Below, in pieces: positions 19,869-34,552 of a DNA stretch of 36,284 bases (positions are counted from its first letter, which is position 1; every line of letters starts with the position of its first letter). The DNA lies in the IMG/VR virus record IMGVR_UViG_3300042691_020347, positions 1 through 36,284 of that record. One strand, 5' to 3'. The stretch comes from a virus. The position numbers were made by a program, and so were the translations under genes. The notes beneath the pieces were generated by a model. That model saw only the letters and a program-made list of their open reading frames with translations, was not told where the DNA came from and did no database searches.

Positions 19869-20158
19869 TGAAAATACAAGAACTTATCCAAGAACAACAA
19901 ACTATCGGTGGAGTAGGTACTACTTCAGGTATTACACAAACTATCGGCCAACCACCGGCTGCTGGTCAAGGTCAAAATCCATCAATGTCTGGAAATGTTC
20001 AAGCATTATCAGATCCTAAATTACAAGCTGCTACACTTGCTCAACAAAAACAAGATCGAGAGCAGAAGAAAAAAGAAGTTGCTGATCAAATAAAATCTAT
20101 GCAACAGCAATTACAAAATCTTCAAAAGCAGCAACAAGATCTAAATAAATTACAATGA
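19868..20158 (+). CDS. Gln-rich coiled-coil protein, MKIQELIQE start
   Basis: 96 residues. The leader MKIQELIQE is followed by a flexible Gly/Pro/Gln region (to about 55) and a Gln/Lys-rich coiled coil (60-96). The leader fits the T4 internal-protein targeting pattern with a cleavage-like Glu. ATGA overlap with the next gene. Possibly a head-interior or scaffold component. Confidence 0.6.
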   Translation: MKIQELIQEQQTIGGVGTTSGITQTIGQPPAAGQGQNPSMSGNVQALSDPKLQAATLAQQKQDREQKKKEVADQIKSMQQQLQNLQKQQQDLNKLQ

Positions 20159-20358
20159 AAATCGTACATTTATTATCTGGCCCAGATGTTGCTTTGTCTA
20201 ATCAAGAGCAACAATTCGCTAAAAAATATAATCATGTTAAAATCAATAGTTTAAGTGAGCACGAACAATGGTTGGCTCAAAACCTTGTTCGTAAAGGTAT
20301 CTATACAATAAGTAAAGATAACGAAACTTTAATTAAACGATTAGATGAAAACAAATAA
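20155..20358 (+). CDS. Small unrecognised protein, 67 aa
   Basis: MKIVHLLSGPD, then helical charged sequence ending in ISKDNETLIKRLDENK. Overlaps both neighbours (4 and 14 bases). No motif that I can name. Coupled translation in the small-gene run leading to the 483-aa protein. Confidence 0.6.
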   Translation: MKIVHLLSGPDVALSNQEQQFAKKYNHVKINSLSEHEQWLAQNLVRKGIYTISKDNETLIKRLDENK

Positions 20359-20812
20359 CGACATTTATATTAGACTTACACAACTTAACAAAGATGTTAA
20401 AGATGATCTTAAACGTCGAGGTCTTGTGGTTCCTATAAAAAAGGACGAAGACACTATCCAATTAGATAAATTTTTGATTAAAAAAATTGATAACGGTTTC
20501 TATAATATTTTGAACATTAGAGGTAATGAAATCGTCCACGGTATAAACTTACCTCAAACTGCTGTTATCCTGGCTAATAAACTTGCATTAGGAAAATGGC
20601 TAGACTTAGAATTATTACAGTATGATAAAAAGTACGGGTTCGCTATGTTCGACGAATTAGTGCATAAGAGATCTATACAAAATAGTTTAAAGAAAAAAGA
20701 ATACGATCGTGCTGAACTTATGCAAAACAAATATTCGATCGCTAAACATAAAAGAAATTATTATAAGAAACTCATAATCAATGACTATCAAAAACTATTG
20801 AAGTTTAGATAA
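20345..20812 (+). CDS. Conserved phage protein, 155 aa
   Basis: Basic, helical C-terminus (KKKEYDRAELMQNKYSIAKHKRNYYKK) and a middle segment GFYNILNIRGNEIVHGINLPQTAVILAN resembling proteins of T4-like marine phages. The basic tail suggests nucleic-acid or scaffold binding. Its stop codon forms part of the late promoter for the next gene. Confidence 0.65.
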   Translation: MKTNNDIYIRLTQLNKDVKDDLKRRGLVVPIKKDEDTIQLDKFLIKKIDNGFYNILNIRGNEIVHGINLPQTAVILANKLALGKWLDLELLQYDKKYGFAMFDELVHKRSIQNSLKKKEYDRAELMQNKYSIAKHKRNYYKKLIINDYQKLLKFR

Positions 20813-20815
20813 ATA
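20808..20815 (+). promoter_or_regulatory. Late promoter, GATAAATA, embedding a stop codon
   Basis: The TAA at 20810-20812 ends the 155-aa gene and is also the TAA of the promoter. The next ATG is 24 bases on. Confidence 0.6.
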
Positions 20816-20839
20816 AAATATCGTTCATATGGAAATGCT

Positions 20840-22291
20840 ATGAAAACTTCTGATTTTAGAAAACAATTAACAAGTTCTCAATTACGTGAGAACATGAGCA
20901 AAATGTTTGGTATGCAAGTTACTCTAGAAAAATATTCTAGAGAACAATTAGAAGACATGCGTAACAAACTACGTACACGCATGTTTCAACATGAGGGTCA
21001 GTCTGGTATTAATGACCTACTTACTAATGAAACATATCAAAAAGACAAAGCTATGTTAGCTTTGCTTAACACAAGGATTAAAGAAATGCTAGGTGAAGAC
21101 ATCAAAAAACTTAAAGACAAAATGGTCGAACTAAGTGAAGCAAAAAAAGGTGTCCGTGCACCTAAATTTACTAAAAAGGCCCAAGGTACCAAAGCCGCTC
21201 AAGATTATGACGGTGATGGAACAATAGAAGAACCAAAAGACGAAGTATGGGGTTCACGTGCCAGAGCTGCTGCTCAAGCTGGTAAACCTTTCCAAGAAGG
21301 TATGAAAGATAAAGTTTGCTCTAAATGCGGTGAAAAGCATACAGGTAAATGTCCAGTAGAAGAAGGCTTTGATGATATGGAAAAAGCTGTTGCCGATCGT
21401 GCAGCAGCTGATAAAAAGAAAAAAGGTACAGGTAAGTTTGATGTAAAGAAAACAACAACCGGTACTAAGTATACCCGTAAACCAGAAACTTTCGATGACG
21501 GCGGCAAAGACAAAGATATGAAGAAGGCCGAAAAGAAGACTAGTGAATCAGTTGTTTCAGAAAAGGCCGAAAGCAAATCTCAACAACAAGCCGCTGGTAT
21601 TGCATTAGCTGCAAAGCGCTCTGGCAAAGCTCCTAAGAAAGGAACAGCTAGCGCCGAAATGGCAAAAATGCCTAAAAAAGAATTAGAGAAGTTTGCAAAA
21701 ACAAAGCATAAGGGATTGCCTGAAAAGAAAAAGAAAACAGATGAATCTATTTTAGCATTCCGTGCTAATGTAAAACTTGTTAACGAAGGTCTACGTCGTT
21801 TAATAAATGAAGACGAAGAAGAAAAAGCAAAGGCAATTACTGCTGCAAGTGATATGGCTAATGACTTTACTAGCTGGATGCAACGTGTTGGTCAATATCA
21901 AACAAAAGTTATGATTGAACTAAGCGATGAAATTCGTCATAATTTTGGTCAAGCTGAAGCAGAAGCATTTAAACAAGCAGTTGGTCCTGCTTTGAGCGCT
22001 ACACTAGAAGTATTAACACAACAACGTGAAGCAATTAGTAATGCTATCGCAGCTCTTGCTGGAGAACAACCTCCTGCAACACCAATGGGAGCAGAACCTG
22101 GTATGGAACCGGCAGCTGAAATGCCAATGGAACCAGCAGGTCCTGATGAAATGAACACTCCTCCTGCAGATGAATTTGCTGCTAGCGATGCTGCCGCAGG
22201 TGCAGGTACACCAGGTCGTGAAATGCGCGAAAGTCGATTTGTTCGTAAATTGGCCGAGAGCCACTCTATTATTAGCAAGCTAGCAAAATAA
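20840..22291 (+). CDS. Scaffold/head-associated protein with DUF3008-like and zinc-knuckle segments
   Basis: 483 residues. N-terminal helical domain from MKTSDFRKQL to about residue 95; then DYDGDGTIEEPKDEVWGSR (about 116-134), an EF-hand-like acidic loop; CSKCGEKHTGKC (about 160-171), a possible zinc knuckle; a Lys-rich spacer; SQQQAAGIALAAKRSG to AKTKHKGLPEKK (about 247-293), a close match to DUF3008-type small proteins as I remember them; a helical domain; a Pro/Met/Glu-rich stretch (about 410-455); and a C-terminal ESRFVRKLAES helix. Repeated ESxx/LxE points look like prohead-protease sites. It is probably a prohead core or internal protein. Confidence 0.65.
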   Translation: MKTSDFRKQLTSSQLRENMSKMFGMQVTLEKYSREQLEDMRNKLRTRMFQHEGQSGINDLLTNETYQKDKAMLALLNTRIKEMLGEDIKKLKDKMVELSEAKKGVRAPKFTKKAQGTKAAQDYDGDGTIEEPKDEVWGSRARAAAQAGKPFQEGMKDKVCSKCGEKHTGKCPVEEGFDDMEKAVADRAAADKKKKGTGKFDVKKTTTGTKYTRKPETFDDGGKDKDMKKAEKKTSESVVSEKAESKSQQQAAGIALAAKRSGKAPKKGTASAEMAKMPKKELEKFAKTKHKGLPEKKKKTDESILAFRANVKLVNEGLRRLINEDEEEKAKAITAASDMANDFTSWMQRVGQYQTKVMIELSDEIRHNFGQAEAEAFKQAVGPALSATLEVLTQQREAISNAIAALAGEQPPATPMGAEPGMEPAAEMPMEPAGPDEMNTPPADEFAASDAAAGAGTPGREMRESRFVRKLAESHSIISKLAK

Positions 22292-22641
22292 TGAAATTAT
22301 TTGAAATAGCAAGCCCCCAGGACGCTAAAACAGTTTTAGATGTTATTAAGGGCTTGGCTAATAAAGATAGAATTCCTAGTGAAATTCCATTCGCTGCCTT
22401 TAAGAATTATATTAAAGGCGACGAAATTGGCGTAGGTACACCAGAGGCATTGGTTGCATTTAAAAATCAAGTTGACCCTACCGGTGATGTTATTCAAGAT
22501 GTTCTAGATAACGGAACTGTTGTGCTTAATACTAAAATAAAAGGTAATGCACAAGACCAAACTCCTGTTCCTGGATCTAGCCCTAGTGTAGATCAAATGG
22601 CATCAAGCGCAGCTAGTAAAGCAATTAGCTCAAACATTTGA
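22291..22641 (+). CDS. Conserved phage protein, MKLFEIASPQD start
   Basis: 116 residues; its ATG shares a base with the preceding stop. Helical N-terminal half (VLDVIKGLANKDRIPSEIPFAAFKNYI) and a flexible Ser/Ala C-terminus. The short leader MKLFEI again matches the group of head-targeting-like N-termini. It ends just upstream of the strong promoter for the exonuclease. Function unknown. Confidence 0.6.
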   Translation: MKLFEIASPQDAKTVLDVIKGLANKDRIPSEIPFAAFKNYIKGDEIGVGTPEALVAFKNQVDPTGDVIQDVLDNGTVVLNTKIKGNAQDQTPVPGSSPSVDQMASSAASKAISSNI

Positions 22642-22666
22642 CATTTGCAAATTAACTAGGTATAAT
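22638..22666 (+). promoter_or_regulatory. Consensus sigma70 promoter (TTGACA-17-TATAAT)
   Basis: Perfect -35 (22638-22643) and -10 (22661-22666) with a 17-base spacer, probably served by unmodified host RNA polymerase (early expression). The expected start is at 22672-22674, essentially on the ATG of the exonuclease. Confidence 0.85.
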
Positions 22667-22673
22667 TAAAGTT

Positions 22674-23399
22674 ATGCCTATTTTTAACCCTCCTATATTT
22701 GTAGAACGTTTTCAATATAAAAACTGCGTTCAAATTAACGATCCTGTAACACGTAAACGTGTATATCAAACACCCGACGGTGAATCACTCCCTAGTGTAA
22801 CTACTATCCTTAGTTCCACGAAAGATATGACCCATCTTAACGAATGGCGAAAACGTATCGGTGAGGATAAAGCTAATCAAATCACTAAAGAGGCTGCTGG
22901 GGTAGGAACCGCTATGCACGCCAACTTAGAAAGATTCATTGCTGGCCTACAACGACAACCGGGAAATAATCCTGTACATGTTCAAGCTAATAAAATGGCT
23001 GACATAATTATCGAAAACGGTTTGAACAAAGTTAACGAAGTTTGGGCAATGGAACAAAGTTTATACTTTCCTGGTCTTTACTCTGGTACTACTGATTTGG
23101 TAGGTGTTTATGACAACCAGCCTGCTGTTATGGACTATAAACAAACTAATAAACCAAAAAAAGAAGAATGGATTGAAGATTATAAAATCCAGTTAACTGC
23201 GTATATTATGGCTCATAATGAAGTCTATGGTACAGATATTCGCAGAGGAGTTGTGTTTATGTGTTCAAGAGATTTACAATATCAACAGTTTGATTTATAT
23301 CCCGATGAGTTTGAACATTGGAAAAATCGTTGGTTAGATAAAGTAGAAGAGTACTACACTACAGGAATGCAAGGACTTAAACAGCTTCTAACTGGATAA
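22674..23399 (+). CDS. PD-(D/E)XK (RecB/Cas4-like) exonuclease
   Basis: 241 residues. Motifs: LPSVTTILSSTKD and GVGTAMHANLE (His of the RecB-type N-terminal motif), Asp141 (GTTDLVG), Asp154-x-Lys156 (VMDYKQ) and Gln173-x3-Tyr177 (QLTAY). These are the hallmarks of RecB-family nucleases common in T4-like marine phages. It would degrade DNA with bound metal, in recombination or host DNA breakdown. No Shine-Dalgarno is visible, and the promoter puts the transcript start at the ATG. It ends in the next gene's promoter. Confidence 0.85.
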   Translation: MPIFNPPIFVERFQYKNCVQINDPVTRKRVYQTPDGESLPSVTTILSSTKDMTHLNEWRKRIGEDKANQITKEAAGVGTAMHANLERFIAGLQRQPGNNPVHVQANKMADIIIENGLNKVNEVWAMEQSLYFPGLYSGTTDLVGVYDNQPAVMDYKQTNKPKKEEWIEDYKIQLTAYIMAHNEVYGTDIRRGVVFMCSRDLQYQQFDLYPDEFEHWKNRWLDKVEEYYTTGMQGLKQLLTG

Positions 23400-23402
23400 A
23401 TA
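23395..23402 (+). promoter_or_regulatory. Late promoter, GATAAATA, embedding a stop codon
   Basis: Contains the exonuclease TAA (23397-23399). Predicted start near 23408 falls within the loop of the hairpin at 23399-23420. Confidence 0.6.
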
Positions 23403-23420
23403 TCCTATATAGGGGATATT
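23399..23420 (+). promoter_or_regulatory. Hairpin covering the tailspike ribosome site
   Basis: AATATCC (23399-23405) pairs with GGATATT (23414-23420); the AGGGG ribosome site (23411-23415) partly lies in the second arm. Read-through mRNA would contain both arms; mRNA from the late promoter would lack the first. Confidence 0.5.
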
Positions 23421-23423
23421 ACA

Positions 23424-25058
23424 ATGGCTGTAGTGGAAATTGCTCGAATACAAGTACGTAGAGGACAAGAAAATCAAACTGGTGTCCCTCAACTGGCCAG
23501 CGGCGAATTCGGTTGGGCAGTAGACACCGAACGTTTATATATTGGCTTATCAAGAGAAGATGGCGGAGCCCGAAATGATAACGTAGAAATTCTTACAGAA
23601 AATCACTTAAGAAATTTCTTTAGTACATTATCTCCACTTGCATCTACTGCAAGCTATGTTTACAGAGTAGGTACATTGATAACTGCTCAAGATAACATAA
23701 ATGAATACGAACGCTCAATTCAAGATAGATTAGACGAACTAGATGTTAATATCGAAAACTTTGGATCAGTAGCCCAAGGTGGTGACGATACTGCTGTATT
23801 ACAATATGCAATTGATAATCTTTTCTTAAATGCAGCTACACTACCGGGAAATCCTGCTAGAACATTAGTATTACCAACAGGTACTTTAAAAATATCCGAA
23901 TCAATTTATATTCCAAAAAATACTAGAATTGTTGGACAAGGTCCCGGAAAAACAAAATTGCTTATTACTTCAACAGGTAGTCATGCACTACAAACAGTCG
24001 ATTCTACTAGTGCAGGCGGAGTTAGCTTTATAACATTTCCTAGCATAAACAGTAATACTAAACCTGACTATGTTCATATAGAAGGTTTAACTATTGAAGT
24101 AGATTCATCTTTAGTTACAACTGAAGCTCTTAGCCTTATAAGTTTAGATTGTGCCAGTAATGCAATTGTACGTGATGTTAACTTTAAAGGATATTATACT
24201 GTAACATCACCAGCAAATAAAAATAATGCAGGCATTGATATTAGAGGTTCGGCTTCAGTAACTTCGGAAAATATTTTTGTTGATAATTGTACATTCGAAG
24301 GATTGTACTACGGTGTTAAATCAAATCATGATATACTAAATCCTCAAATACATAATTGTAAATTTAATGATCTAAATAGAGGTATTGTATTCAATGATCC
24401 TATTGATCCAATAGCTAGTATCGGCCCACGTTTTTGTAGAATTACTAATAATAGATTTAAAAATATTGCACAACAAGCAATATATGCCGGTGCTAGTATA
24501 TCTACTACATCAACTAATCACTTATCAATGTACAATCAATTTATTAATGTTGGAAATAACATTGTGTGGGGTGAACTATCAACTACAGGAACATCTGTAA
24601 TTAAATTTGAAAGCGAAGAAAATATTAGTATACATGATTATTTTAATAGACATGAAGTTCAATATTCTAATGCAGGAACAACATTAAAATATAATAGTCT
24701 AATTGAAGGTAATGCTGATATTATTTTATCTAATAACAGATCTGTTGTTATTCCTGCTGGTCTCACAAAATGTGTTTTACGTATAGCAATTACTGATTAC
24801 GAACAATACATGGTTATTAAATATAATGCATCAAGTGTATTACCAGTATCTCGCTCAGGATCTTTAGATATTAATATAGGTAGAGACACAGATCCAACAG
24901 TGAGTATTACTGATAATTATAATTATGTTTCCGCAGCCGAAGGTAGTATAACTTGGGAAACCATTGTTGACTCCACAAACAAATGGGTTGAATTAAGAGC
25001 CACTAATGATGATGGCGACCCATTAACTATAGAACACAAAACAACTTTAATGGTATAA
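23424..25058 (+). CDS. Beta-helix tailspike/receptor-binding protein
   Basis: 544 residues. N-terminal segment IQVRRGQ...LASGEFGWAVDTERLYIG (about 8-41) is the short attachment domain seen at the start of many phage fibres. From about 115 (GGDDTAVLQYAIDNL, then LVLPTGTLKIS and TRIVGQGPGKT) it reads as a pectate-lyase-like right-handed beta-helix with repeated short strands (IHNCKFNDLNRGIVFND; ITNNRFKNIAQQAIYAG). It probably binds or cleaves a host surface polysaccharide; catalytic residues cannot be assigned by eye. The following gene starts on the next base. Confidence 0.8.
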   Translation: MAVVEIARIQVRRGQENQTGVPQLASGEFGWAVDTERLYIGLSREDGGARNDNVEILTENHLRNFFSTLSPLASTASYVYRVGTLITAQDNINEYERSIQDRLDELDVNIENFGSVAQGGDDTAVLQYAIDNLFLNAATLPGNPARTLVLPTGTLKISESIYIPKNTRIVGQGPGKTKLLITSTGSHALQTVDSTSAGGVSFITFPSINSNTKPDYVHIEGLTIEVDSSLVTTEALSLISLDCASNAIVRDVNFKGYYTVTSPANKNNAGIDIRGSASVTSENIFVDNCTFEGLYYGVKSNHDILNPQIHNCKFNDLNRGIVFNDPIDPIASIGPRFCRITNNRFKNIAQQAIYAGASISTTSTNHLSMYNQFINVGNNIVWGELSTTGTSVIKFESEENISIHDYFNRHEVQYSNAGTTLKYNSLIEGNADIILSNNRSVVIPAGLTKCVLRIAITDYEQYMVIKYNASSVLPVSRSGSLDINIGRDTDPTVSITDNYNYVSAAEGSITWETIVDSTNKWVELRATNDDGDPLTIEHKTTLMV

Positions 25059-25493
25059 ATGTTTAATCAATCTGTAGATCAAAGATTAACAGAATGGATT
25101 AATTGTAGAAATACACTGGAAGTTATTGAAGATCCATTACAATACGTTTGGGACTTTTGGCATCCAGCTCCATTCATTCCCTATAATAAAAATATAGATC
25201 CCTACTTTAAAAGAAATTGGCCTAGCCCATGGGAAATAATTGCCGAAAACAAATACGACGATTTTACTAGAGCATTAATGATATCTTGGACTCTTAAATT
25301 AACTAAGAAATTCAACCAATCTAAGATAGAAATAAAAACTTTAGTAGACTCTGAACACGAAAGAGAGTATAATCTAGTGTTTGTAGACGATAATTATGTT
25401 ATTAACTATAGTGATAACGGGCCTGTTTCTGTATTAGACTTAATCGGTTCATTTAGACTACAAAATCTAATAGAAGTTGATACCCCAAGGTAA
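25059..25493 (+). CDS. Conserved T4-like phage protein, 144 aa
   Basis: Contains WDFWHPAPFIPYNKNIDPYF and WPSPWEIIAENKYDDFTRALM, strings that I recall from a conserved protein of T4-like marine phages. Mixed alpha/beta, no catalytic motif that I can defend. It begins directly after the tailspike stop (TAAATG) and ends in the nrd late-promoter element. Confidence 0.7.
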   Translation: MFNQSVDQRLTEWINCRNTLEVIEDPLQYVWDFWHPAPFIPYNKNIDPYFKRNWPSPWEIIAENKYDDFTRALMISWTLKLTKKFNQSKIEIKTLVDSEHEREYNLVFVDDNYVINYSDNGPVSVLDLIGSFRLQNLIEVDTPR

Positions 25494-25496
25494 ATA
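25489..25496 (+). promoter_or_regulatory. Late-type promoter element, GGTAAATA, at nrd operon
   Basis: Includes the TAA of the preceding gene. No sigma70 promoter is visible in the 36-base gap, so nrdA may depend on this or on read-through. Confidence 0.45.
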
Positions 25497-25529
25497 TCTT
25501 CCTGAAATAATAATAAGAGGTTTTTAAAT

Positions 25530-27881
25530 ATGATCACAGTGGTCAAAAGAAATGGGGAATCTGTTCCTTTAGATATTTCTAAAATTCAAAGGCAGGTTGC
25601 TTATGATTGCAAAGGAATAGACGGTGTTAGTCCAAGTATGATTGAAATCAAGGCTCAACTTGAATTCCATGATGGGATGACCACAAAAACTATCGATGAA
25701 TTGCTGTTAAAAGCAATGGTTGATTTAATCGACGAAACAGAGAACTCCGAGATTAATAATGTTAACTATCAATATGTGGCAGGACGTCAAAAGGTCAGTA
25801 TGCTACGAAAAGAAGTCTACGGAAGATATACTCCTCCTCCGCTTTATGAAATTGTAAAAAAGAATATCGAATTGGGAATGTATACTCCTGATTTACTTAA
25901 ATGGTATTCTAAAGAAGAATGGGATATTATCGACCTATTCATAGACCACGGTAAAGACGAAGATTATACCTATGCAGCTATTGCTCAACTTGCTGAAAAA
26001 TATCTTGTACAAAATCGAGCAACGGGAAAAATTTACGAAACACCACAGGTAAGATATGCAATTGCTGCTGCAACTGCTTTCCACGCAGAACCACAAGATA
26101 AAAGATTGAAATATGTTAAAGAATATTATGAGTGCGCTAGTGATGGTCACTTTACTTTAGCAACTCCTGTGCTTGCTGGGTTGGGTACTACTACTAAACA
26201 ATTTAGTAGCTGCGTTCTTATTTCTAGTGACGATACCTTGGATAGTATATTTGCTGCTGGCGAAATGATGGCCAAATATGCTTCAAAACGAGCCGGAATT
26301 GGCTTGGAAATTGGCCGAATTCGACCCTTAGGAGCACCAATTCGTAATGGAGAAATTAAACATACGGGTATGATACCATTCTTGAAAAAATGGTATGCGG
26401 ATCTACGTTCATGCTCACAAGGTGGTATTCGTAACGCAAGTTGCACAATTACTTTTCCTATTTGGCACTATCAATTTGAAGACCTAATTGTTCTAAAAAA
26501 TAATCAAGGAACAGAAGAAACTCGTGTACGTCAAATGGATTATTCTGTAGTCGTTAATGCTATGTTTTGGCGTAGGTTTAAACACGGTGAAGATATAACA
26601 CTTTTTGATCCGCACGAAGTTCCGGATCTTTACGAAGCATATTATAGAGATACTAAAGAATTTGAAAAACTATACTTACATTATGAGCAAGATAAAACAA
26701 AAAAGAAAAAAGTTATATCCGCCGAAGAACTTTTCAAGAACGGCATACTTAAAGAGCGTACGGATACTGGAAGAATCTACCTTGTCAACATCGACAACGT
26801 TATCAACCAAGGCCCATTTGATACAAAGACTGACCCGATATATCAATCAAATCTCTGTCAAGAAATACTCTTGCCCACCAAACCTTTTCAACGAATTGAA
26901 GACCCGGAGGGGAGAATTGCTCTTTGCACTCTTGGATCGATAAATTGGGGTGCTTTCCGCAACCCTCAAGATATGCGTAAAGCATGTCGTGTACTTGTTC
27001 GTAGCTTGAGTAACTTACTTAACTATCAAGACTTCTTGAGCATTCAAAGTAAATTGGCTAATGAAGACTTTGAACCACTTGGTGTTGGTATTACTAACTT
27101 AGCATATTGGCATGCACGTCGTAATTTAAAATATGGTGAGACTGATGCACTTGCCGAAGTTAAACGTTGGATGGAACATCAAGCATATTATCTAACTGAA
27201 ACTAGCGTTGAACTAGCACAAGAACGTGGTGCTTGCAAACGTAGCGAATTCACTTACTATGGCAAAGGTGTCTTTCCTTGGGAACGTAGAGCCGCTGGTG
27301 TGAATGAATTAACTGACTTTACTCCTAAATTAGATTGGGAATTGTTACGTACAAAAATGAAACAATATGGTATACGTAATGGAACCCTGATGGCAGTGGC
27401 TCCTGTTGAGTCTAGTAGTGTCGTCCTTAATTCTACCAACGGCATAGAAATGCCTATGGAAATGATCAGCGTTAAAGAAAGTAAAGCCGGCTCATTTGTA
27501 CAGGTTGTTCCGGATTACAAACGATTAAAGAATCGTTATCAACTAATGTGGGAACAAACTGATTGTATCGGTTATCTTAAAACGGCCGCTGTACTAGCAG
27601 CCTATATTGATCAATCACTTTCTACAAATACTTTTTATAATCCAGCACATTTTAAGGGCGCAAAAGTCCCTGGAACTTTAATTTCTAAAAACTTAATGCT
27701 GGCTTACAAATGGGGATTAAAAACTATATACTATAGTTTAATTAATAAAGTAGGTGCTAAGGCAAATATAACAGGAACAAATATGTATCCGTTATTAACT
27801 GGAACTACAATTCCTGCTGTTGGCATTACATCTCCTCTGAATACAACAGCAGATGAAGATTGCGAAGCTTGTAAACTCTAA
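25530..27881 (+). CDS. nrdA: Ribonucleotide reductase class Ia, large subunit
   Basis: 783 residues, close to the E. coli length. It reduces ribonucleoside diphosphates to deoxy forms with NrdB. N-terminal ATP-cone (VKRNGESVPLDISKIQRQV). Active-site residues: Cys228 (FSSCVLIS), Asn441-Cys443-Glu445 (NLCQE) and Cys466 (LCTLGS); the C-terminal shuttle cysteines are Cys778 and Cys781 (CEAC). All key residues are present, so it should be active. AAGAGG ribosome site. First gene of a nrdA-nrdB-small protein-glutaredoxin operon, supplying dNTPs for phage replication. Confidence 0.97.
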   Translation: MITVVKRNGESVPLDISKIQRQVAYDCKGIDGVSPSMIEIKAQLEFHDGMTTKTIDELLLKAMVDLIDETENSEINNVNYQYVAGRQKVSMLRKEVYGRYTPPPLYEIVKKNIELGMYTPDLLKWYSKEEWDIIDLFIDHGKDEDYTYAAIAQLAEKYLVQNRATGKIYETPQVRYAIAAATAFHAEPQDKRLKYVKEYYECASDGHFTLATPVLAGLGTTTKQFSSCVLISSDDTLDSIFAAGEMMAKYASKRAGIGLEIGRIRPLGAPIRNGEIKHTGMIPFLKKWYADLRSCSQGGIRNASCTITFPIWHYQFEDLIVLKNNQGTEETRVRQMDYSVVVNAMFWRRFKHGEDITLFDPHEVPDLYEAYYRDTKEFEKLYLHYEQDKTKKKKVISAEELFKNGILKERTDTGRIYLVNIDNVINQGPFDTKTDPIYQSNLCQEILLPTKPFQRIEDPEGRIALCTLGSINWGAFRNPQDMRKACRVLVRSLSNLLNYQDFLSIQSKLANEDFEPLGVGITNLAYWHARRNLKYGETDALAEVKRWMEHQAYYLTETSVELAQERGACKRSEFTYYGKGVFPWERRAAGVNELTDFTPKLDWELLRTKMKQYGIRNGTLMAVAPVESSSVVLNSTNGIEMPMEMISVKESKAGSFVQVVPDYKRLKNRYQLMWEQTDCIGYLKTAAVLAAYIDQSLSTNTFYNPAHFKGAKVPGTLISKNLMLAYKWGLKTIYYSLINKVGAKANITGTNMYPLLTGTTIPAVGITSPLNTTADEDCEACKL

Positions 27882-27896
27882 ATTAGGAATCACACT

Positions 27897-28997
27897 ATGT
27901 CACACGCACAATATAATCTATCCACTAAACCAAACTATCTAAAACGTAAAATGTTCTTGGATCCAGAAGGCCCTGTAACAGTACAACGTTTTGAAGAAGT
28001 AAAATATCAAAAGCTTCAAAACTTTGAAACACTAGCAAGAGGTTTCTTTTGGGTCCCAGAAGAAATTAGTCTCACTAAAGATAAGATTGATCACAAAGAA
28101 TCCAGTGAAGCTATTAAACATATATTCACTAGTAATCTATTAAGACAAACAGCATTGGATAGCATTCAAGGTCGCGCACCAAGTCAAATTTTTGGCCCTG
28201 TGTGTAGTATTCCAGAATTAGAAGCATTGACATTGACTTGGGGTTTCTTTGAAACTAGTATTCATTCTAAGAGCTATAGCCATATTATACGAAATGTCTA
28301 TGGAGTACCTAAGGATGAATTTAATAAAATTCACGACACAGCTGAAATTGTTGGTATGGCTGCAAACATAGGAAGGTATTATGAAAATTTACATCAGCTT
28401 AATTGCCGTAAAGAATTAGGCGAAGATATTCCAGTCTATGATCACAAACGAGCAATTTGGCTTGCATTACATGCTTCATATGCTCTCGAAGCATTACGAT
28501 TCATGGTATCATTCGCTACTAGTCTTGCTATGGTAGAAAATAAAATCTATATTGGTAATGGAAATATTATTAGTCTAATTTTACAAGACGAAATTTTACA
28601 TGCTGAATGGACAGCTTGGATAATTAACAATGTTGTAAAAGAAGATAATGATTTTGTAAAATTACAAGACGAATGTCGAGATGAAGTATATCAAATGTAT
28701 ATGGAAGTAATCGACGAAGAAAAATCATGGGCAGACTTTTTGTTTAAAAAGGGTGTGGTTATTGGTCTTAACGCTAATATTTTAAAAGACTTTGTTGATT
28801 TTACAGCATTTAATCGATTAAAAGATATCGGAATCAAATATCTTTCTGATCATCCAAAGTCAACACCCATTCCATGGTTTAACAAACATGTGAATATTAA
28901 TAAAAAACAAGTAGCGTTACAAGAAACTGAATCTACTAATTACGTAATTGGTGTAATGAGTGATCAAGTTGAATATGAAGCACTACCAGATTTATAA
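27897..28997 (+). CDS. nrdB: Ribonucleotide reductase class Ia, small subunit
   Basis: 366 residues. Builds the di-iron tyrosyl radical for NrdA. Ligands by match to E. coli R2: Asp88 (ALDSIQGR), Glu119 and His123 (FETSIHSKSY), the Glu in ALEALRF, and Glu/His in DEILHAEW; the radical tyrosine is Tyr127. Glu119 to His123 spans four positions where E. coli has three (ExxH), a one-residue insertion in a ligand helix. It lies 15 bases after nrdA. Confidence 0.96.
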   Translation: MSHAQYNLSTKPNYLKRKMFLDPEGPVTVQRFEEVKYQKLQNFETLARGFFWVPEEISLTKDKIDHKESSEAIKHIFTSNLLRQTALDSIQGRAPSQIFGPVCSIPELEALTLTWGFFETSIHSKSYSHIIRNVYGVPKDEFNKIHDTAEIVGMAANIGRYYENLHQLNCRKELGEDIPVYDHKRAIWLALHASYALEALRFMVSFATSLAMVENKIYIGNGNIISLILQDEILHAEWTAWIINNVVKEDNDFVKLQDECRDEVYQMYMEVIDEEKSWADFLFKKGVVIGLNANILKDFVDFTAFNRLKDIGIKYLSDHPKSTPIPWFNKHVNINKKQVALQETESTNYVIGVMSDQVEYEALPDL

Positions 28998-29006
28998 GGA
29001 TTAAAA

Positions 29007-29177
29007 ATGGCAAAAATACAAACAAAAACCATTGTAGTAAGATTTAATAAAATAGTTAAAGATAAAGATTCAACATCTTTTGTTATTTCAGAAGATGTTG
29101 CAAAGACATTAGAAGAAGTTGCACAAGAAATGTGCGATTCGTCAGTTATCGTAGAAGTGGAGGAAATCGATGAATAA
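29007..29177 (+). CDS. Small 56-aa protein between nrdB and glutaredoxin
   Basis: AAGGA seven bases upstream of the ATG. Sequence: a beta strand KIQTKTIVVRFNKIVK, then a helix (EDVAKTLEEVAQEM) and VIVEVEEIDE. Acidic. It overlaps the glutaredoxin start by eight bases. No known family; conservation inside the nrd operon would suggest a reductase accessory or simply a packed gene. Confidence 0.6.
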   Translation: MAKIQTKTIVVRFNKIVKDKDSTSFVISEDVAKTLEEVAQEMCDSSVIVEVEEIDE

Positions 29178-29409
29178 TGTAATTTTATGGAGCAAATATC
29201 ATTGCCCTTATTGTGATCAGGCTAAAGCGTTATTAAAACAAAAAGGTATTCCTTTTGAAGAACGTAAAATTGGCGATGGATGGTCAAAAGAAGAATTGCT
29301 AGAAAGTTTGCCAACTGCTCGCACTGTTCCACAAATTGTTATTAACGGTGAATGCATTGGTGGCTTTATTGAATTGAAAGAATATTTAGGTGTAGGAAAT
29401 GTCTATTAA
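29170..29409 (+). CDS. nrdC: Glutaredoxin
   Basis: 79 residues, a standard compact glutaredoxin: CPYC redox pair (12-15), TVPQIVINGE cis-Pro loop and the GGF glutathione-binding segment. Strong GGAGG ribosome site. As the last nrd-operon member it can reduce the C-terminal cysteines of NrdA. The symbol follows T4 usage. It overlaps the next gene by 11 bases. Confidence 0.93.
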   Translation: MNNVILWSKYHCPYCDQAKALLKQKGIPFEERKIGDGWSKEELLESLPTARTVPQIVINGECIGGFIELKEYLGVGNVY

Positions 29410-29827
29410 TTATTCCTCAGATGTTATAACTTCTGGATCAGATGAAGATACCATTACTATTAATAGTAGTACATTAGATGATATTATGCATTCTACTATG
29501 AGCACATCTTTGAATTATTCAATTAACAGCTCTGGTACAATAGGAACTGCTGGGCTTGGTAATTATACATTTACAACAGATGGAACAGGATATGCTCAAC
29601 CTTGGGTAACAACAACTGGTGTTCCACATACATTAGATGTTAAAGGTGATGCTAACTTCGAAGGTGATATTAAATTTAAAGGTCGTAGTCTAGAAGAACT
29701 ATTTTCTAAAATAGAAGATCGGTTAGCGATCCTACAACCAGATCCTGCAAAATTAGAAAAATACGAAGCTTTACGTAAAGCATATGAACATTATAAGCTA
29801 ATGGAAAAGCTTATAGGCGAAGAATAA
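29399..29827 (+). CDS. Conserved phage structural-type protein (VKGDANFEGDIK)
   Basis: 142 residues. A Ser/Thr/Asn-rich N-terminal half is followed by LDVKGDANFEGDIKFKGRSLEELFSKIEDRLAIL and a helical C-terminus. This C-terminal pattern is familiar from T4-like marine phage virion proteins (memory). Overlaps the glutaredoxin gene. Probably a minor structural or assembly protein. Confidence 0.65.
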   Translation: MSINYSSDVITSGSDEDTITINSSTLDDIMHSTMSTSLNYSINSSGTIGTAGLGNYTFTTDGTGYAQPWVTTTGVPHTLDVKGDANFEGDIKFKGRSLEELFSKIEDRLAILQPDPAKLEKYEALRKAYEHYKLMEKLIGEE

Positions 29828-29843
29828 ACTAAGAAAGAAAATT

Positions 29844-30131
29844 ATGTTAATCTCTAAGGGTATAGCTGTCGGCGAAATTGTCAGCATTAAATTAATTACA
29901 GGCGAAGAACTAATCGCAAAGCTAGAAGAAGAAACAACGGATTATATTAAGGTCAATCGACCATTAACAGTTAGCTTAGGTCCGCAAGGATTGGGTATGA
30001 TTCCTTTTGTATTTCTTGCACAAAATGAATCAATTAAATTAAAAATGGATCACGTATTAGTATTGGCAGCATCAAAAAAGGATGCTGCTGACCAGTACAT
30101 TCAAGGTACAACAGGTATCGCTCTCAAGTAA
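29844..30131 (+). CDS. Small Sm-like-fold phage protein
   Basis: 95 residues of alternating short strands (GEIVSIKLITGEELIAKLEEETTDYIKVNRPLTV), compatible with a small Sm-like barrel, a type found in T4-like phages. An RNA- or protein-binding role is plausible but unproven. Weak ribosome site (AAGAAAG). Its stop codon is part of the AGTAAATA element. Confidence 0.55.
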   Translation: MLISKGIAVGEIVSIKLITGEELIAKLEEETTDYIKVNRPLTVSLGPQGLGMIPFVFLAQNESIKLKMDHVLVLAASKKDAADQYIQGTTGIALK

Positions 30132-30134
30132 ATA
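30127..30134 (+). promoter_or_regulatory. Late promoter, AGTAAATA, embedding a stop codon
   Basis: TAA 30129-30131 ends the 95-aa gene; AAAGGAGAG and the ATG at 30156 follow. Confidence 0.55.
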
Positions 30135-30155
30135 ATATGTAAAGGAGAGATTTGT

Positions 30156-31142
30156 ATGCCCTACGTTCCAGGTGTTACAGTACAAGGCAATAGCGGCCTT
30201 CCGGAAGTAAGAGACGTTTATAACAGCCCTAATGTTTTTGCAAATAATGTTGAAATAGCATTATGGAAAGAAGCAGTTGATACTGCTGCTTTTGTGCTAT
30301 CATTAACTACACCTGAAAATACTTATGTATTCGAACAAGTTGACGTAGATCATGTCACTCCAGAAACTGCTGCATATGTTGCAAATTCAACAGAATCAGC
30401 AGTGTATGTAGGAACATCAACTGGAGTGATGTCCGGGTTAACAACATCTCCTACAACTTCTCTACCTATCGATGAATCAGGAAATACTGTTAATACTTCT
30501 ACAGCAGCGGTATTAACAGCGACATATCAAGTTACTAATTGGGATCAATTTAATGATAACAATATTCCTTATGATACGTTGATGTTAACTCCAAAAACTT
30601 CTTTAGCTACATTTACAACTAAAGCAGCTTTGTGGAAAAATCAACCTACCCCATTGGGTCCTAAGGCTCAATACTCTTCAGGTAGTGCAGGTGATAATAA
30701 ACATATTATAGCACAAGATTATTATGTAGGTGGAAAAGTAGCAGGTAGGCTTACAGTTCCTCAGATACTTCATAATTTAAGTAATTTGGCTAAAAATATC
30801 TACGAACCATTAAAAGAAAAATATCCTAACATAATAGTAACTAATACCTTTAGACAAAATCCGCCAGGTGGCCAAAGAACGCAGGCACAACATGGGCTAG
30901 GAATGGCAATGGATGTTGTATTTCCTGGAGCAAGTGCTACTGATTATTATAATATAAGTTGTTGGATTAGAGATAATTTACCAATCGATCAATTACTTCA
31001 AGAAAAAGCAGGAAGTACACGGTGGATACATATAAGTCATTACAGTGGATTCGGATATCAAGTACCAAAAGTGAATAAAGTTGCTAACTGTATTGTGAGT
31101 CCTAGTTATAGTTTTGTCCCCGGATTGAGCATTATGGCTTAA
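30156..31142 (+). CDS. Virion protein with M15 (D,D-peptidase-like) domain
   Basis: 328 residues. The N-terminal about 170 residues are beta-rich and structural in character (MPYVPGVTVQGNSGLPEVRDVYN). The C-terminal domain has the zinc ligands of M15/VanY peptidases: His246 and Asp253 (HGLGMAMDVVF) and His292 (WIHISH). It would cleave peptidoglycan peptides, probably as a tail/baseplate enzyme at entry or as a lysis factor. No signal peptide. Strong AAAGGAGAG site and own late promoter support virion production. Confidence 0.8.
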   Translation: MPYVPGVTVQGNSGLPEVRDVYNSPNVFANNVEIALWKEAVDTAAFVLSLTTPENTYVFEQVDVDHVTPETAAYVANSTESAVYVGTSTGVMSGLTTSPTTSLPIDESGNTVNTSTAAVLTATYQVTNWDQFNDNNIPYDTLMLTPKTSLATFTTKAALWKNQPTPLGPKAQYSSGSAGDNKHIIAQDYYVGGKVAGRLTVPQILHNLSNLAKNIYEPLKEKYPNIIVTNTFRQNPPGGQRTQAQHGLGMAMDVVFPGASATDYYNISCWIRDNLPIDQLLQEKAGSTRWIHISHYSGFGYQVPKVNKVANCIVSPSYSFVPGLSIMA

Positions 31143-31149
31143 TTTTTTC

Positions 31150-31178
31150 TTGACTTATTTTTATTTCTTTGCTATAAT
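31150..31178 (+). promoter_or_regulatory. Sigma70 promoter for cold-shock gene (TTGACT-17-TATAAT)
   Basis: -35 at 31150-31155, -10 at 31173-31178, spacer 17. The leader is only about 20 bases, without the long cold-box leader of E. coli cspA. Confidence 0.85.
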
Positions 31179-31204
31179 TATATTATATTGAAAAAGGTAG
31201 TAAT

Positions 31205-31414
31205 ATGATTCAAGGTAAAGTTAAATGGTTTAATAATGCTAAAGGTTTTGGATTTGTTGTTCCTAATGAATCCAACGATGATGTATTCATTCATTTTAGT
31301 CAAATTAAAATGGACGGATATCGTACACTTAAGACTGGACAACAAGTAGAATTTGATCTGGTTGAAAGTGACAAAGGTAAGCAAGCTCAAAACATTCAAC
31401 TAGTAAAGGAATAA
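31205..31414 (+). CDS. Cold-shock domain protein
   Basis: 69 residues, the standard single-domain CspA length. RNP1 KGFGFV and RNP2 DVFIHF are intact, after the typical GKVKWFNNAKGFG start. Binds single-stranded RNA/DNA and melts mRNA structure. The host-like promoter suggests early expression; phages occasionally carry such genes. AAAGG ribosome site. Followed at three bases by the 48-aa gene, likely co-transcribed. Confidence 0.95.
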   Translation: MIQGKVKWFNNAKGFGFVVPNESNDDVFIHFSQIKMDGYRTLKTGQQVEFDLVESDKGKQAQNIQLVKE

Positions 31415-31417
31415 ATT

Positions 31418-31564
31418 ATGTATCGTTATCAACTTTGGATTCGTTTGAATTCTACACAAACTGCTCATGTGATTATCAATGCCGACAACGATCTTCAAGC
31501 AAAAATGCTTGGTGAAGCACAATACGGAAACGGTAATGTATTAGGTTATACACAAGTTAGTTAA
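31418..31564 (+). CDS. Small 48-aa phage protein (DNDLQAKMLGEAQYG)
   Basis: AAAGGA eight bases upstream. Reads MYRYQLWIRLNSTQTAHVIINADNDLQAKMLGEAQYGNGNVLGY...: a beta strand pair, then a helix, close to small proteins common in T4-like phages (memory). Stop TAA overlaps GTTAAATA. It is probably the second gene of the cold-shock unit. Confidence 0.65.
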   Translation: MYRYQLWIRLNSTQTAHVIINADNDLQAKMLGEAQYGNGNVLGYTQVS

Positions 31565-31567
31565 ATA
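31560..31567 (+). promoter_or_regulatory. Late-type element, GTTAAATA, before the RNA locus
   Basis: Embeds the preceding TAA. If active it would start an RNA just upstream of the structured segment and the tmRNA; otherwise the cold-shock promoter would read through. Confidence 0.4.
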
Positions 31568-31587
31568 TATATGCTTTTGTAGGGGTA

Positions 31588-31668
31588 AAATTTACGTAGT
31601 AGATTGATGGAGTGAGAGGCTCCATGGCTCGGCAGAGGCTCTACACGCCCTAGGAAGTCTGCTAATTT
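31588..31668 (+). ncRNA. Uncharacterised structured RNA segment upstream of tmRNA
   Basis: Closing stem TAGTAGATT (31597-31605) with AGTCTGCTA (31656-31664), two G-U pairs, perhaps extended by AAAT/ATTT. Inside is a perfect ATGGAG/CTCCAT hairpin (31607-31625). GCAGA (31632-31636) can alternatively pair with TCTGC (31658-31662). No T-loop or CCA, so not a tRNA. It may be leader structure of the tmRNA precursor or a separate small RNA. Confidence 0.4.
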
Positions 31669-31672
31669 AATT

Positions 31673-31747
31673 ATGATTGAAGCTTGTTTATTATTAGTAG
31701 TTATTGCAGCCCTAGTTTGGCTAGATGACTACTATAATAGACGATGA
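31673..31747 (+). CDS. Possible 24-aa membrane microprotein
   Basis: MIEACLLLVVIAALVWLDDYY then NRR: a single membrane helix with a charged end. No Shine-Dalgarno, and it lies inside the RNA locus, so it may be chance. Confidence 0.25.
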   Translation: MIEACLLLVVIAALVWLDDYYNRR

Positions 31748-31813
31748 TTATTGCTGTATGAAGCAAAGAGAAACGTGTTCCGGACGGCGGTTCGATTCCG
31801 CCCAGGTCCACCA

Positions 31814-31883
31814 GAAGTATTTTAACAGAGACGGACAAGCTCGGGCGCAAGCCAGGAGAGGACGAAATTAGAATGCTTCTGAT
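31814..31883 (+). other. tmRNA intervening segment with end-pairing helix
   Basis: The 70 bases between CCA and the coding-piece 5' end. GAAGTATTTT (31814-31823) pairs with AGAATGCTTC (31870-31879) with G-U pairs allowed, stacking near the acceptor stem. In two-piece tmRNAs this segment is cut out during maturation, by tRNA-processing enzymes. Confidence 0.8.
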
Positions 31884-31969
31884 GGGCCTGACCAGGTTTC
31901 GACGGGGTAAAGAGTAACAGAGTGGACAGCACGGTAGATGACGACCGTAAATCGCATAAAACTATAAAT

Positions 31970-32011
31970 GCAAATGATGCATATTTTGGAGAAGAGCGCC
32001 TAGCAGCGTGA
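31970..32011 (+). other. tmRNA proteolysis-tag reading frame
   Basis: Reads ANDAYFGEERLAA then TGA. The AND start matches the E. coli resume region and the LAA end matches the ClpXP-recognised C-terminus of ssrA tags. Confidence 0.9.
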
Positions 32012-32051
32012 CCTCCAGGGGGCAGGAAAGGCCTTATTACCCAACAAACCT

Positions 32052-32076
32052 AAAAAGCACCTTCGGGTGCTTTTTT
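32052..32076 (+). terminator. tmRNA terminator
   Basis: AAAAAGCACC/GGTGCTTTTT with a UUCG tetraloop and U-run. Confidence 0.95.
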
Positions 32077-32099
32077 ATTTTATCTCTGCATATTTTAAA

Positions 32100-32107
32100 A
32101 GTAAATA
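32100..32107 (+). promoter_or_regulatory. Possible late promoter, AGTAAATA
   Basis: After the tmRNA terminator, 88 bases before the next gene; weaker match than the element at 32166. Confidence 0.35.
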
Positions 32108-32165
32108 TCTGATATGAAAGATGAATTTCAGTTAGTCGTTTTGATCTGCAAACAAAAACAAAAAC

Positions 32166-32173
32166 AATAAATA
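32166..32173 (+). promoter_or_regulatory. Late promoter, AATAAATA
   Basis: 22 bases before the ATG at 32196, followed by a GAGGA ribosome site. It likely drives the adhesin/PP-loop/protease genes to 35132. Confidence 0.6.
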
Positions 32174-32195
32174 TATTACAGTTGAGGAAAATTAT

Positions 32196-32513
32196 ATGTT
32201 TTTATACGAAACTCTTACGATAGATAGACTTCATTTTTATCCGAGTTTAGAAAATACAGTGTATGCTGTACAGTATACATATACATTTGATAACCTAGTC
32301 GACGCTGAAATAAAATTTACTAAATTAGTTGGCTTACCATTACCTCAAACAAATTTTGTTCTTTATGATAATCTAACAGAAGAAATGGTTAAACAATGGG
32401 TAAATCAATATGATAGCGAGACTATCGATTTATTTAGAAGAAAATGTATATCTGATCTAAATGATCGGAATAGCCCACAGGAAACTCCTCCAAGTTTACC
32501 TTGGGATAATTAA
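32196..32513 (+). CDS. DUF7936-like small tail-associated protein (1)
   Basis: 105 residues. A beta strand pair (VYAVQYTYTFDNLVDAEIKFTKLVGLP), then YDNLTEEMVKQWV and a Pro-Trp ending (PPSLPWDN). The pattern ...xNLTEExxxxWV...LPW is one I associate with small proteins beside fibre genes in T4-like marine phages. It resembles the next gene, so the pair is a tandem duplication. Possibly a fibre chaperone or small virion protein. Confidence 0.65.
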   Translation: MFLYETLTIDRLHFYPSLENTVYAVQYTYTFDNLVDAEIKFTKLVGLPLPQTNFVLYDNLTEEMVKQWVNQYDSETIDLFRRKCISDLNDRNSPQETPPSLPWDN

Positions 32514-32884: not shown

Positions 32885-34552
32885 ATGAATAGATTTGATG
32901 AACTTTTTTCTTTAAAAGATATAACCACTTATTCTAACACTTTAGGAATTACTGAAGATGTTAGAAAATCCTATGTTGGTTTTACAAGAAAAATTCTAAA
33001 TGAACATAATGTTAAAAAAAGTCAAAATGTTAAATTAAATTGTTATCAAACAATTTTTCCAAAAATAGAAAAAAGAAAAAAGTTTACAGGGTTTGAAAAA
33101 TTTGTTGATTTAGAATTTAAAATTAGAATAAAATTATTATCAATGACATCTCCAAATCCTGATACATCAGTAGCTTATGATAATAACCATAAACATATTA
33201 GCACTCCTGAAGAATATGTAGATTTACTTGTTTCTGAAATAAAAAAAGAAAAAAAAGAAAAATTATTATACTTTAGTGGCGGATTAGATAGTGAACTATT
33301 GGCCTATATTTTATTAAACAATGATATTGAATTTACACCAGTAATTTTTCAATTATTAGATAATAATGACGAAGTTTCAAACGCAGAAGAAATATCATAT
33401 GCGATTAATTTTTGTAAAAAATTCTGTATAACTCCTATAATAGAAAATTTGTATATTGAAGACTTTTGGACAAGTGATGAATTTTTTACAATGGCTGAAG
33501 AATTTAACATAGTTAGTCCACATGTATTAACTCATGCCAAAATGATTCTTATCATGAATGAAAAATTTCCCGATCATGCTCATTATTTCGGCGGGGAAGT
33601 TAGATACATAATGGATATACCGAGAAATGAAGAAACAAAATTAGATTTAGTTTTTTCAGAAAAATTAGCAAAAGATACATTGTGGTATTTTCCTGCAGGA
33701 CCTCTTGTAATACCTGAAGGGTTTAGTAACAGTGTTACTACAAATAGTGTTACTTCTTTATTGTGGTATGGTTGGACAAATATGGCTTTGGCTATTGTCG
33801 GCGGCGGCGGTTCAGGTGGTCTAAAAATAGGTGCTGTTGCAGGTGGTGGCGGTGGTGGTGGTCAAGCTCGGACAGTTACTCTTACAAAACCGTCAGCAAC
33901 ATGGATTAGGGCTATTTTTGTAACTGCTGGAAAGGGAGGTATTCCGACAGCAGGTCAAGAAGGTTATTATTCCTCTGTTTCTTTATTTGAAGACACTGCA
34001 GGATTTACAGTATGGAAATCAATGCAGGCTACAGGTGGCGGCGCGGGATACGGAAGTTTTGATCCAGGAAGAGGCGGTTATGGAAAAATAGGAAACAATA
34101 ATGGATCTCCTACTGCGGACAACGGAAGCTCTTTAACAATAGACAACGGCCAAAGGATTGGCGGTAATGGTAATGCCGCGAGTGGACTTAATAATGGAGG
34201 TGGAGGTGGTAGCGGTGCTGCATTTGGCGGTGATCCTACAGTTTCTGCAGGTGGTAACGGGGCAGATGGTCAATTTGTAAATTTAGCTATCACTGGAAAT
34301 CCGACAGGCCAATTTGGTGCAGGTGGAGGTGGAGGCGCTAATCAATCAACATCAGCAACAGGGGGGATAGGAGGATTAGGATTCGAGTCTTCTTCAGTAC
34401 CAGCAGGTGGTGACGGTGGTGACGGGAGCGCCTTAGGAAATGGTCAAAACGGAGTTAACTACTTCGGTGCCGGGGGTGGAGGCCAAGGTGGCGGTTCATC
34501 AGCAGGCAGTGGCTCTCAAGGATTGATTAGAATGCAATATTGGAGAACTTAA
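32885..34552 (+). CDS. PP-loop ATPase fused to glycine-rich adhesin-like domain
   Basis: 555 residues in one uninterrupted frame. Residues about 1-125 are helical and basic. SGGLDS (131-136), after strand LLYF, is the ATP-pyrophosphatase P-loop (asparagine synthase/QueC-type superfamily), and the fold continues to about 260 (FGGEVRYI). From about 305 the protein becomes polyglycine-rich (AIVGGGGSGG, GGGGGGGQ) with short beta stretches and ends GLIRMQYWRT, like the adhesin at 3784. The ATPase would adenylate an acyl or similar substrate, unknown here. The fusion is unusual; N-terminal codons are more AT-rich than the Gly-rich half, consistent with domain joining. Confidence 0.75.
   Translation: MNRFDELFSLKDITTYSNTLGITEDVRKSYVGFTRKILNEHNVKKSQNVKLNCYQTIFPKIEKRKKFTGFEKFVDLEFKIRIKLLSMTSPNPDTSVAYDNNHKHISTPEEYVDLLVSEIKKEKKEKLLYFSGGLDSELLAYILLNNDIEFTPVIFQLLDNNDEVSNAEEISYAINFCKKFCITPIIENLYIEDFWTSDEFFTMAEEFNIVSPHVLTHAKMILIMNEKFPDHAHYFGGEVRYIMDIPRNEETKLDLVFSEKLAKDTLWYFPAGPLVIPEGFSNSVTTNSVTSLLWYGWTNMALAIVGGGGSGGLKIGAVAGGGGGGGQARTVTLTKPSATWIRAIFVTAGKGGIPTAGQEGYYSSVSLFEDTAGFTVWKSMQATGGGAGYGSFDPGRGGYGKIGNNNGSPTADNGSSLTIDNGQRIGGNGNAASGLNNGGGGGSGAAFGGDPTVSAGGNGADGQFVNLAITGNPTGQFGAGGGGGANQSTSATGGIGGLGFESSSVPAGGDGGDGSALGNGQNGVNYFGAGGGGQGGGSSAGSGSQGLIRMQYWRT

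Follow-up and report, generated by a model that had tools for sequence, protein, structure and literature searches.

A circularly permuted tmRNA gene with a phage tag and a linked candidate leader RNA in a freshwater phage

Introduction

Permuted tmRNAs of phages are known but unexplained. In 2022, a two-piece ssrA was reported for the T4-like methylophage Melnitz, and two-piece tmRNAs accounted for 53 of 133 unique phage tmRNAs, with 50 from marine or aquatic samples (PMC9004378). A tmRNA database of 2025 contains 79 phage sequences (PMC11915505). Furthermore, permuted tmRNA is present in cultured Stenotrophomonas Menderaviruses, and tmRNA/ssrA is annotated in four of their records. An earlier sequence-only reading of the locus described here regarded a permuted form in a T4-like phage as rare or undescribed; in view of Melnitz and the Menderaviruses, this claim is unsupported.

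Here, we analysed a 36,284-nucleotide stretch of DNA from a freshwater phage (IMG/VR record IMGVR_UViG_3300042691_020347), referred to in its whole length as the window. Its tmRNA gene is compared with relatives in viral contigs and bacterial genomes, together with three features on which the sequence-only reading was silent, namely the G3-U70 alanine pair, the phage-only tag and a folded RNA upstream of the gene.

Results and Discussion

Anatomy of the Permuted tmRNA Gene

Reading of the sequence, ARAGORN and Rfam concordantly place a permuted tmRNA gene at 31752-32050 on the plus strand, with the acceptor half located 5′ of the coding half (Table 1). In a cmscan search, the full RF04321 model (tmRNA_permuted) matched 31752-32011 with 131.7 bits (gathering score 47, E 8.9e-26), and the full RF01850 model (beta_tmRNA) matched 31708-32077 with 126.3 bits (gathering score 84, E 2.5e-38), the latter being the best match within the Rfam tmRNA clan. 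The window tmRNA is a real member of this known kind, as the sequence-only reading had proposed for a circularly permuted two-piece gene in a virus record.

The structural details given in that reading were also recovered. The acceptor stem is formed by GGGCCTG (31884-31890) and CAGGTCC (31803-31809) and is paired in seven of seven positions, whereby the third pair is G-U (G3-U70). This G3-U70 pair specifies alanine identity, and together with A73 at 31810 and the encoded CCA at 31811-31813 the complete alanine identity set is present. The T arm, described as perfect, consists of the stem GGCGG (31786-31790)/CCGCC (31798-31802) and the loop TTCGATT. Starting with GCA and ending with TGA, the tag frame is read both directly and by ARAGORN as ANDAYFGEERLAA, which carries the hydrophobic degron end LAA and, as had been stated, is unlike the E. 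coli tag. The expected UUCG terminator follows as a hairpin with a T run.

Table 1. Features of the tmRNA locus in the window (coordinates in window numbering).
Feature	Position	Strand	Basis
TAAATA box, like the T4 late promoter core, 11 nt ahead of the leader RNA	31562..31567	+	Position recurrent in relatives
Candidate new structured leader RNA, ~92 nt: P1 enclosing P2, P3, P4, plus pseudoknot	31573..31663	+	Own covariance model, covariation
Small ORF MIEACLLLVVIAALVWLDDYYNRR with one hydrophobic segment, between leader and tmRNA	31673..31747	+	Translation
Acceptor piece: P2 3′ strand, T arm, acceptor 3′ strand, A73, CCA	31752..31813	+	RF04321 and RF01850 alignments, sequence
Spacer, 70 nt, predicted hairpin prolonging the acceptor stem	31814..31883	+	Fold of 31740-31890
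Coding piece: GGGCCTG, D-loop GGTTTCGACGGGG, P2 5′ strand, tag frame, 3′ structured part	31884..32050 (3′ end approximate)	+	RF04321/RF01850, ARAGORN
Tag reading frame ANDAYFGEERLAA with stop TGA, member of the ANDxYFGExRLAA group	31970..32011	+	Sequence, ARAGORN
UUCG intrinsic terminator hairpin with T run	32052..32079	+	Sequence and fold

The Phage and Its Relatives

When the NrdA of the window was used as a query, many viral contigs were matched, the 80 retained at 83-100% identity. T4-type gp23 is found in two of these nrdA relatives (G018 and G033) and in the cultured phages X1 and IME-SM1, which supports, through relatives only, the earlier assignment to a T4-like phage; the 36-kb window fragment itself contains no gp23, and the phage is probably T4-like. 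At the DNA level, megablast of 20001-31500 against 50,697 phage records revealed no near relative, and the tmRNA region gave three short matches in the same records. Close to the locus, a cold-shock-like ORF (31205-31414, its identity judged from sequence) lies shortly upstream of the late-type promoter, and a 48-residue ORF (31418-31564) directly precedes it. Further downstream, an ORF at 32885-34552 shows a weak TilS-like match near its N-terminus, while its C-terminal half is rich in glycine.

Conservation of the tmRNA Structure

Conservation was evaluated on those permuted phage tmRNAs from viral contigs that were unique and had a clear acceptor stem (81 sequences). Acceptor pairing reached 99.5% compared with 81% for shuffled 3′ strands; over the 16 distinct acceptor types it was 97% against 73%, with the top of 1000 shuffles at 86%. 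G3-U70 was retained in 80 of the 81 relatives, and for the 65 with spacers of at least 50 nt, the helix at the spacer ends had a mean length of 10.1 bp, compared with 6.7 bp with shuffled partners. Judged from these values, the acceptor and spacer helices are kept by compensatory change. Combined, the acceptor covariation, the retention of G3-U70 and the spacer helix form the pattern expected of working genes, and the spacer hairpin lends support to a precursor that would be cut into two mature RNAs.

Several sister permuted tmRNAs (L225, L235, L228, L240 and L244) and related viral loci possess non-canonical T-loops, such as GGCAGTG or TATCGTAT replacing TTCGATT, and some of them carry a GGATCGAT D-loop. 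These genes were missed by ARAGORN and found by RF04321. Since ARAGORN overlooks many sister genes, several of them with degenerate T-loops, phage tmRNAs are under-counted. In L253, the spacer is near zero and CCA is not encoded (TCCAAAACAGGGGGGATG); the RF04321 match of L229 is as short as that of L253, and no CCA was parsed.

The Phage Tag

The motif ANDxYFGExRLAA occurs in 40 viral contigs, and 39 of the 40 records exceed the permuted-tmRNA cut-off. Although the stop codon is outside the search pattern, a stop directly follows the motif in each of the 38 loci newly fetched by the viral tag scan and in each of the 23 unique tag sequences. The same exact degenerate pattern, which near variants could escape, had no match in 84,980 prokaryote genomes (one per species), while the bacterial tag ANDERFALAA, used as a control pattern, gave at least 120 matches in this collection, mostly betaproteobacterial loci among the matches listed. 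The ANDxYFGExRLAA tag is found only in viruses among the genomes and viral contigs searched. This distribution, viral and absent from the searched prokaryote genomes, suggests that the phage needs its own tag. The possibility that betaproteobacteria with ANDERFALAA are generally permuted was rejected, as ARAGORN called 96 one-piece and 15 permuted genes among the matches listed.

In comparison with the sampled permuted bacterial relatives, which mostly have 10-residue tags such as ANDERFALAA, the phage tag is distinct and longer. In E. coli, SspB reads the AND...Y side of the tag and ClpX the LAA end, and delivery by the adaptor can be favoured when the two sites are further apart. The phage tag, being longer, could work in this way.

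In the tree, the rows with the ANDxYFGExRLAA tag need 12 changes, at least four of which are forced by well-supported branches, suggesting partly separate histories of the tag and the tRNA-like domain. Because these histories appear discordant, conservation of the tag may partly be a product of recombination. A pair of loci, L032 and L223, has very similar tRNA-like domains and different tags (ANDEQFALAA and ANDAYFGEDRLAA, respectively), which suggests tag exchange through recombination. For eight other phage loci (L015, L020, L027, L186, L191, L216, L146 and L120), ARAGORN gave tags of 24-31 residues, several mutually related (e.g. AKTFEFKTFSVEEVASNDFAFELAA); these are either real long tags or the result of mis-set resume codons.

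The Upstream Leader RNA

The candidate leader RNA has a P1 of 10 bp and a 6-bp pseudoknot in which the P4 loop (31631-31636) pairs with the tail (31658-31663), and the window copy scores 93.3 bits against our own covariance model, R1. In an alignment of 30 sequences, 88.9% of the cells are paired (98.9% for the pseudoknot) and 23 of 32 pairs show two-sided changes; the covariation is 0.517, whereas shuffled partners give 0.256 and slid partners no more than 0.190. As the structure was drawn by eye on the same alignment, the comparison with slid partners is biased in its favour. For 39 distinct model matches, the covariation is 0.636 against 0.243, with the alignment itself fitted to the model. 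P3 is wholly missing from two copies, L051 and L026. An Rfam scan of the leader gave no match at E ≤ 10, and no copy was found among 100 Burkholderiales genomes in a search run without a positive control. The folded element appears undescribed so far. A glutamine riboswitch, to which the example of Melnitz and the short peptide ORF had pointed, was rejected, as 31300-32300 contains no glnA or Downstream-peptide match at E ≤ 10.

Of 51 unique leader copies, 45 have TAAATA at most 30 nt upstream, for the most part between −8 and −13, compared with 1.6% of random 36-nt stretches from the same loci. The T4 late promoter is TATAAATA, and by analogy the placement of the box makes it likely that transcription starts with the first nucleotide of P1 or close to it. 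Downstream of the leader, a small ORF similar to that of the window is present at the same place in the relative L095. Elsewhere, the leader also precedes protein genes, including genes for short, apparently secreted proteins. Short ORFs following the leader in L004, L009, L058 and L111 encode single hydrophobic peptides or basic peptides (MAYRAK...RRQLRKRK).

Among the contigs collected by nrdA or tag, a tmRNA was located within the fetched sequence for 28 of 43 leader matches, invariably downstream and on the same strand. Since this set was partly selected by tmRNA, contigs were then sought by the leader alone. This search yielded 22 new contigs, all confirmed by the covariance model, although several are near copies and the independent cases are fewer. 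In 16 of them, a permuted tmRNA is present, again in every case downstream of the leader and on its strand; the distance is at most 1.4 kb in 15 contigs and about 10 kb in the remaining one. Of the six contigs without a tmRNA, five end within 600 nt, and the sixth, L466, shows no match over about 7 kb; together with L056/G026 and L062/G029, it carries a leader and no tmRNA match in at least 4 kb downstream. The leader is single-copy in each of 15 long records with a match. A strongly covarying leader beside tmRNA genes offers a handle on the mode and timing of ribosome-rescue RNA expression in a phage. Its role may be regulatory or protective, or the leader may merely be located next to the tmRNA.

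Proposed Mechanism and Alternative Explanations

The gene anatomy, the identity elements, the spacer hairpin, the conservation of the phage tag, the leader structure and the leader-tmRNA linkage are directly supported. With high confidence, we read the locus as encoding a late-expressed phage trans-translation RNA that would borrow host SmpB; we infer this function from sequence, and with it the expression late in infection, the processing and charging of the RNA, the use of SmpB, the fate of the tag and the role of the leader. Late in infection, transcription would begin at the folded leader, cross the small ORF and the tmRNA and stop at the UUCG terminator. The precursor would then be cut at the acceptor/spacer junctions by tRNA-processing enzymes of the host, with loss of the spacer, so that an acceptor piece charged with alanine would be joined to the coding piece through the acceptor stem and P2. 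The phage tmRNA and host SmpB would then rescue stalled ribosomes, and the rescued products would gain (A)ANDAYFGEERLAA, still with a ClpXP-type LAA end.

A captured host ssrA of permuted type, carried as passing cargo without a phage-specific role, would be in line with the betaproteobacterial model as the best clan match and with the permuted tmRNAs of some Burkholderiales, where 13 of 300 genomes from the order of a Polynucleobacter genome match at 120 bits or more. However, a strong permuted match occurs in just 1 of 369 genomes of the class of this Polynucleobacter, whereas 25 of 37 long nrdA-relative records of the phage group are above the cut-off; the three weak above-cut-off cases in each bacterial sample are one-piece according to ARAGORN. 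The tag motif, searched as an exact pattern, is missing from all 84,980 prokaryote genomes, compensatory change maintains the acceptor and spacer helices, and phage and bacterial sequences are mostly apart in the tree, where support is weak and the bootstrap not settled. We regard simple capture as quite improbable.

It is also unlikely, though less so, that the phage tmRNA is a competitor which titrates SmpB or AlaRS or redirects tagged host proteins instead of performing ordinary rescue. No SmpB gene was found in the window or in 39 related records (40 phage records in total, several of them fragments), and the distinct, longer tag is compatible with such a role. Selective tagging of host proteins was proposed by the Melnitz authors (PMC9004378), and a phage RNA barely exceeding the tRNA-like domain was reported to resemble a form which acts as an inhibitor of the host tmRNA (PMC11915505; PMC4131195). 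A pure competitor, however, has no need of the full tag frame with LAA and stop, which is conserved here. For the leader, a role as a general 5′ stabiliser of the late transcript, with no functional tie to the tmRNA, falls just short of an even chance. The linkage may exist only through conserved gene order, the distance to the tmRNA varies from about 100 nt to 10 kb, and the occurrence of the leader ahead of genes for short, apparently secreted proteins fits such a role; the single leader per record, always upstream of the tmRNA on the same strand where both are found, speaks against it. At the other end, a dedicated late module of freshwater phages, in which a new pseudoknotted leader would control the output of a permuted tmRNA with a phage-only tag, so that the phage runs its own trans-translation and sends tagged proteins to a non-host fate, is a tentative reading that we consider rather doubtful.

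Comparison with Known Systems

The window gene shares its gene order, acceptor stem, T arm, D-loop motif, spacer and tag frame with the permuted tmRNAs of RF04321 and RF01850, and differs in the tag ANDAYFGEERLAA from the mostly 10-residue tags of the sampled bacterial relatives. As in the marine myophage Melnitz, a complete permuted tmRNA, here in a probable myophage, is found near a structured RNA, which in the window may be regulatory; in Melnitz, however, the tmRNA is alphaproteobacterial/SAR11-like and accompanied by a glutamine riboswitch, whereas the window has a beta-type tmRNA and a different structured RNA. That riboswitch (glnA/Downstream-peptide RNA) likewise is a structured leader followed by a short hydrophobic peptide ORF, whereas the window element lacks an Rfam match at E ≤ 10. 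The Stenotrophomonas Menderaviruses (IME-SM1, Marzo, Yut2 and Bhz51) and Xanthomonas phage X1 are cultured phages which also carry a permuted tmRNA near nrdA, together with T4-type gp23 in IME-SM1 and X1, but their tags are VAANDDSYTVRIAA and VAANDADYSVARYA, and no copy of the leader RNA was found in IME-SM1 or X1. What goes beyond these known cases is the phage-only tag group and the linked leader RNA.
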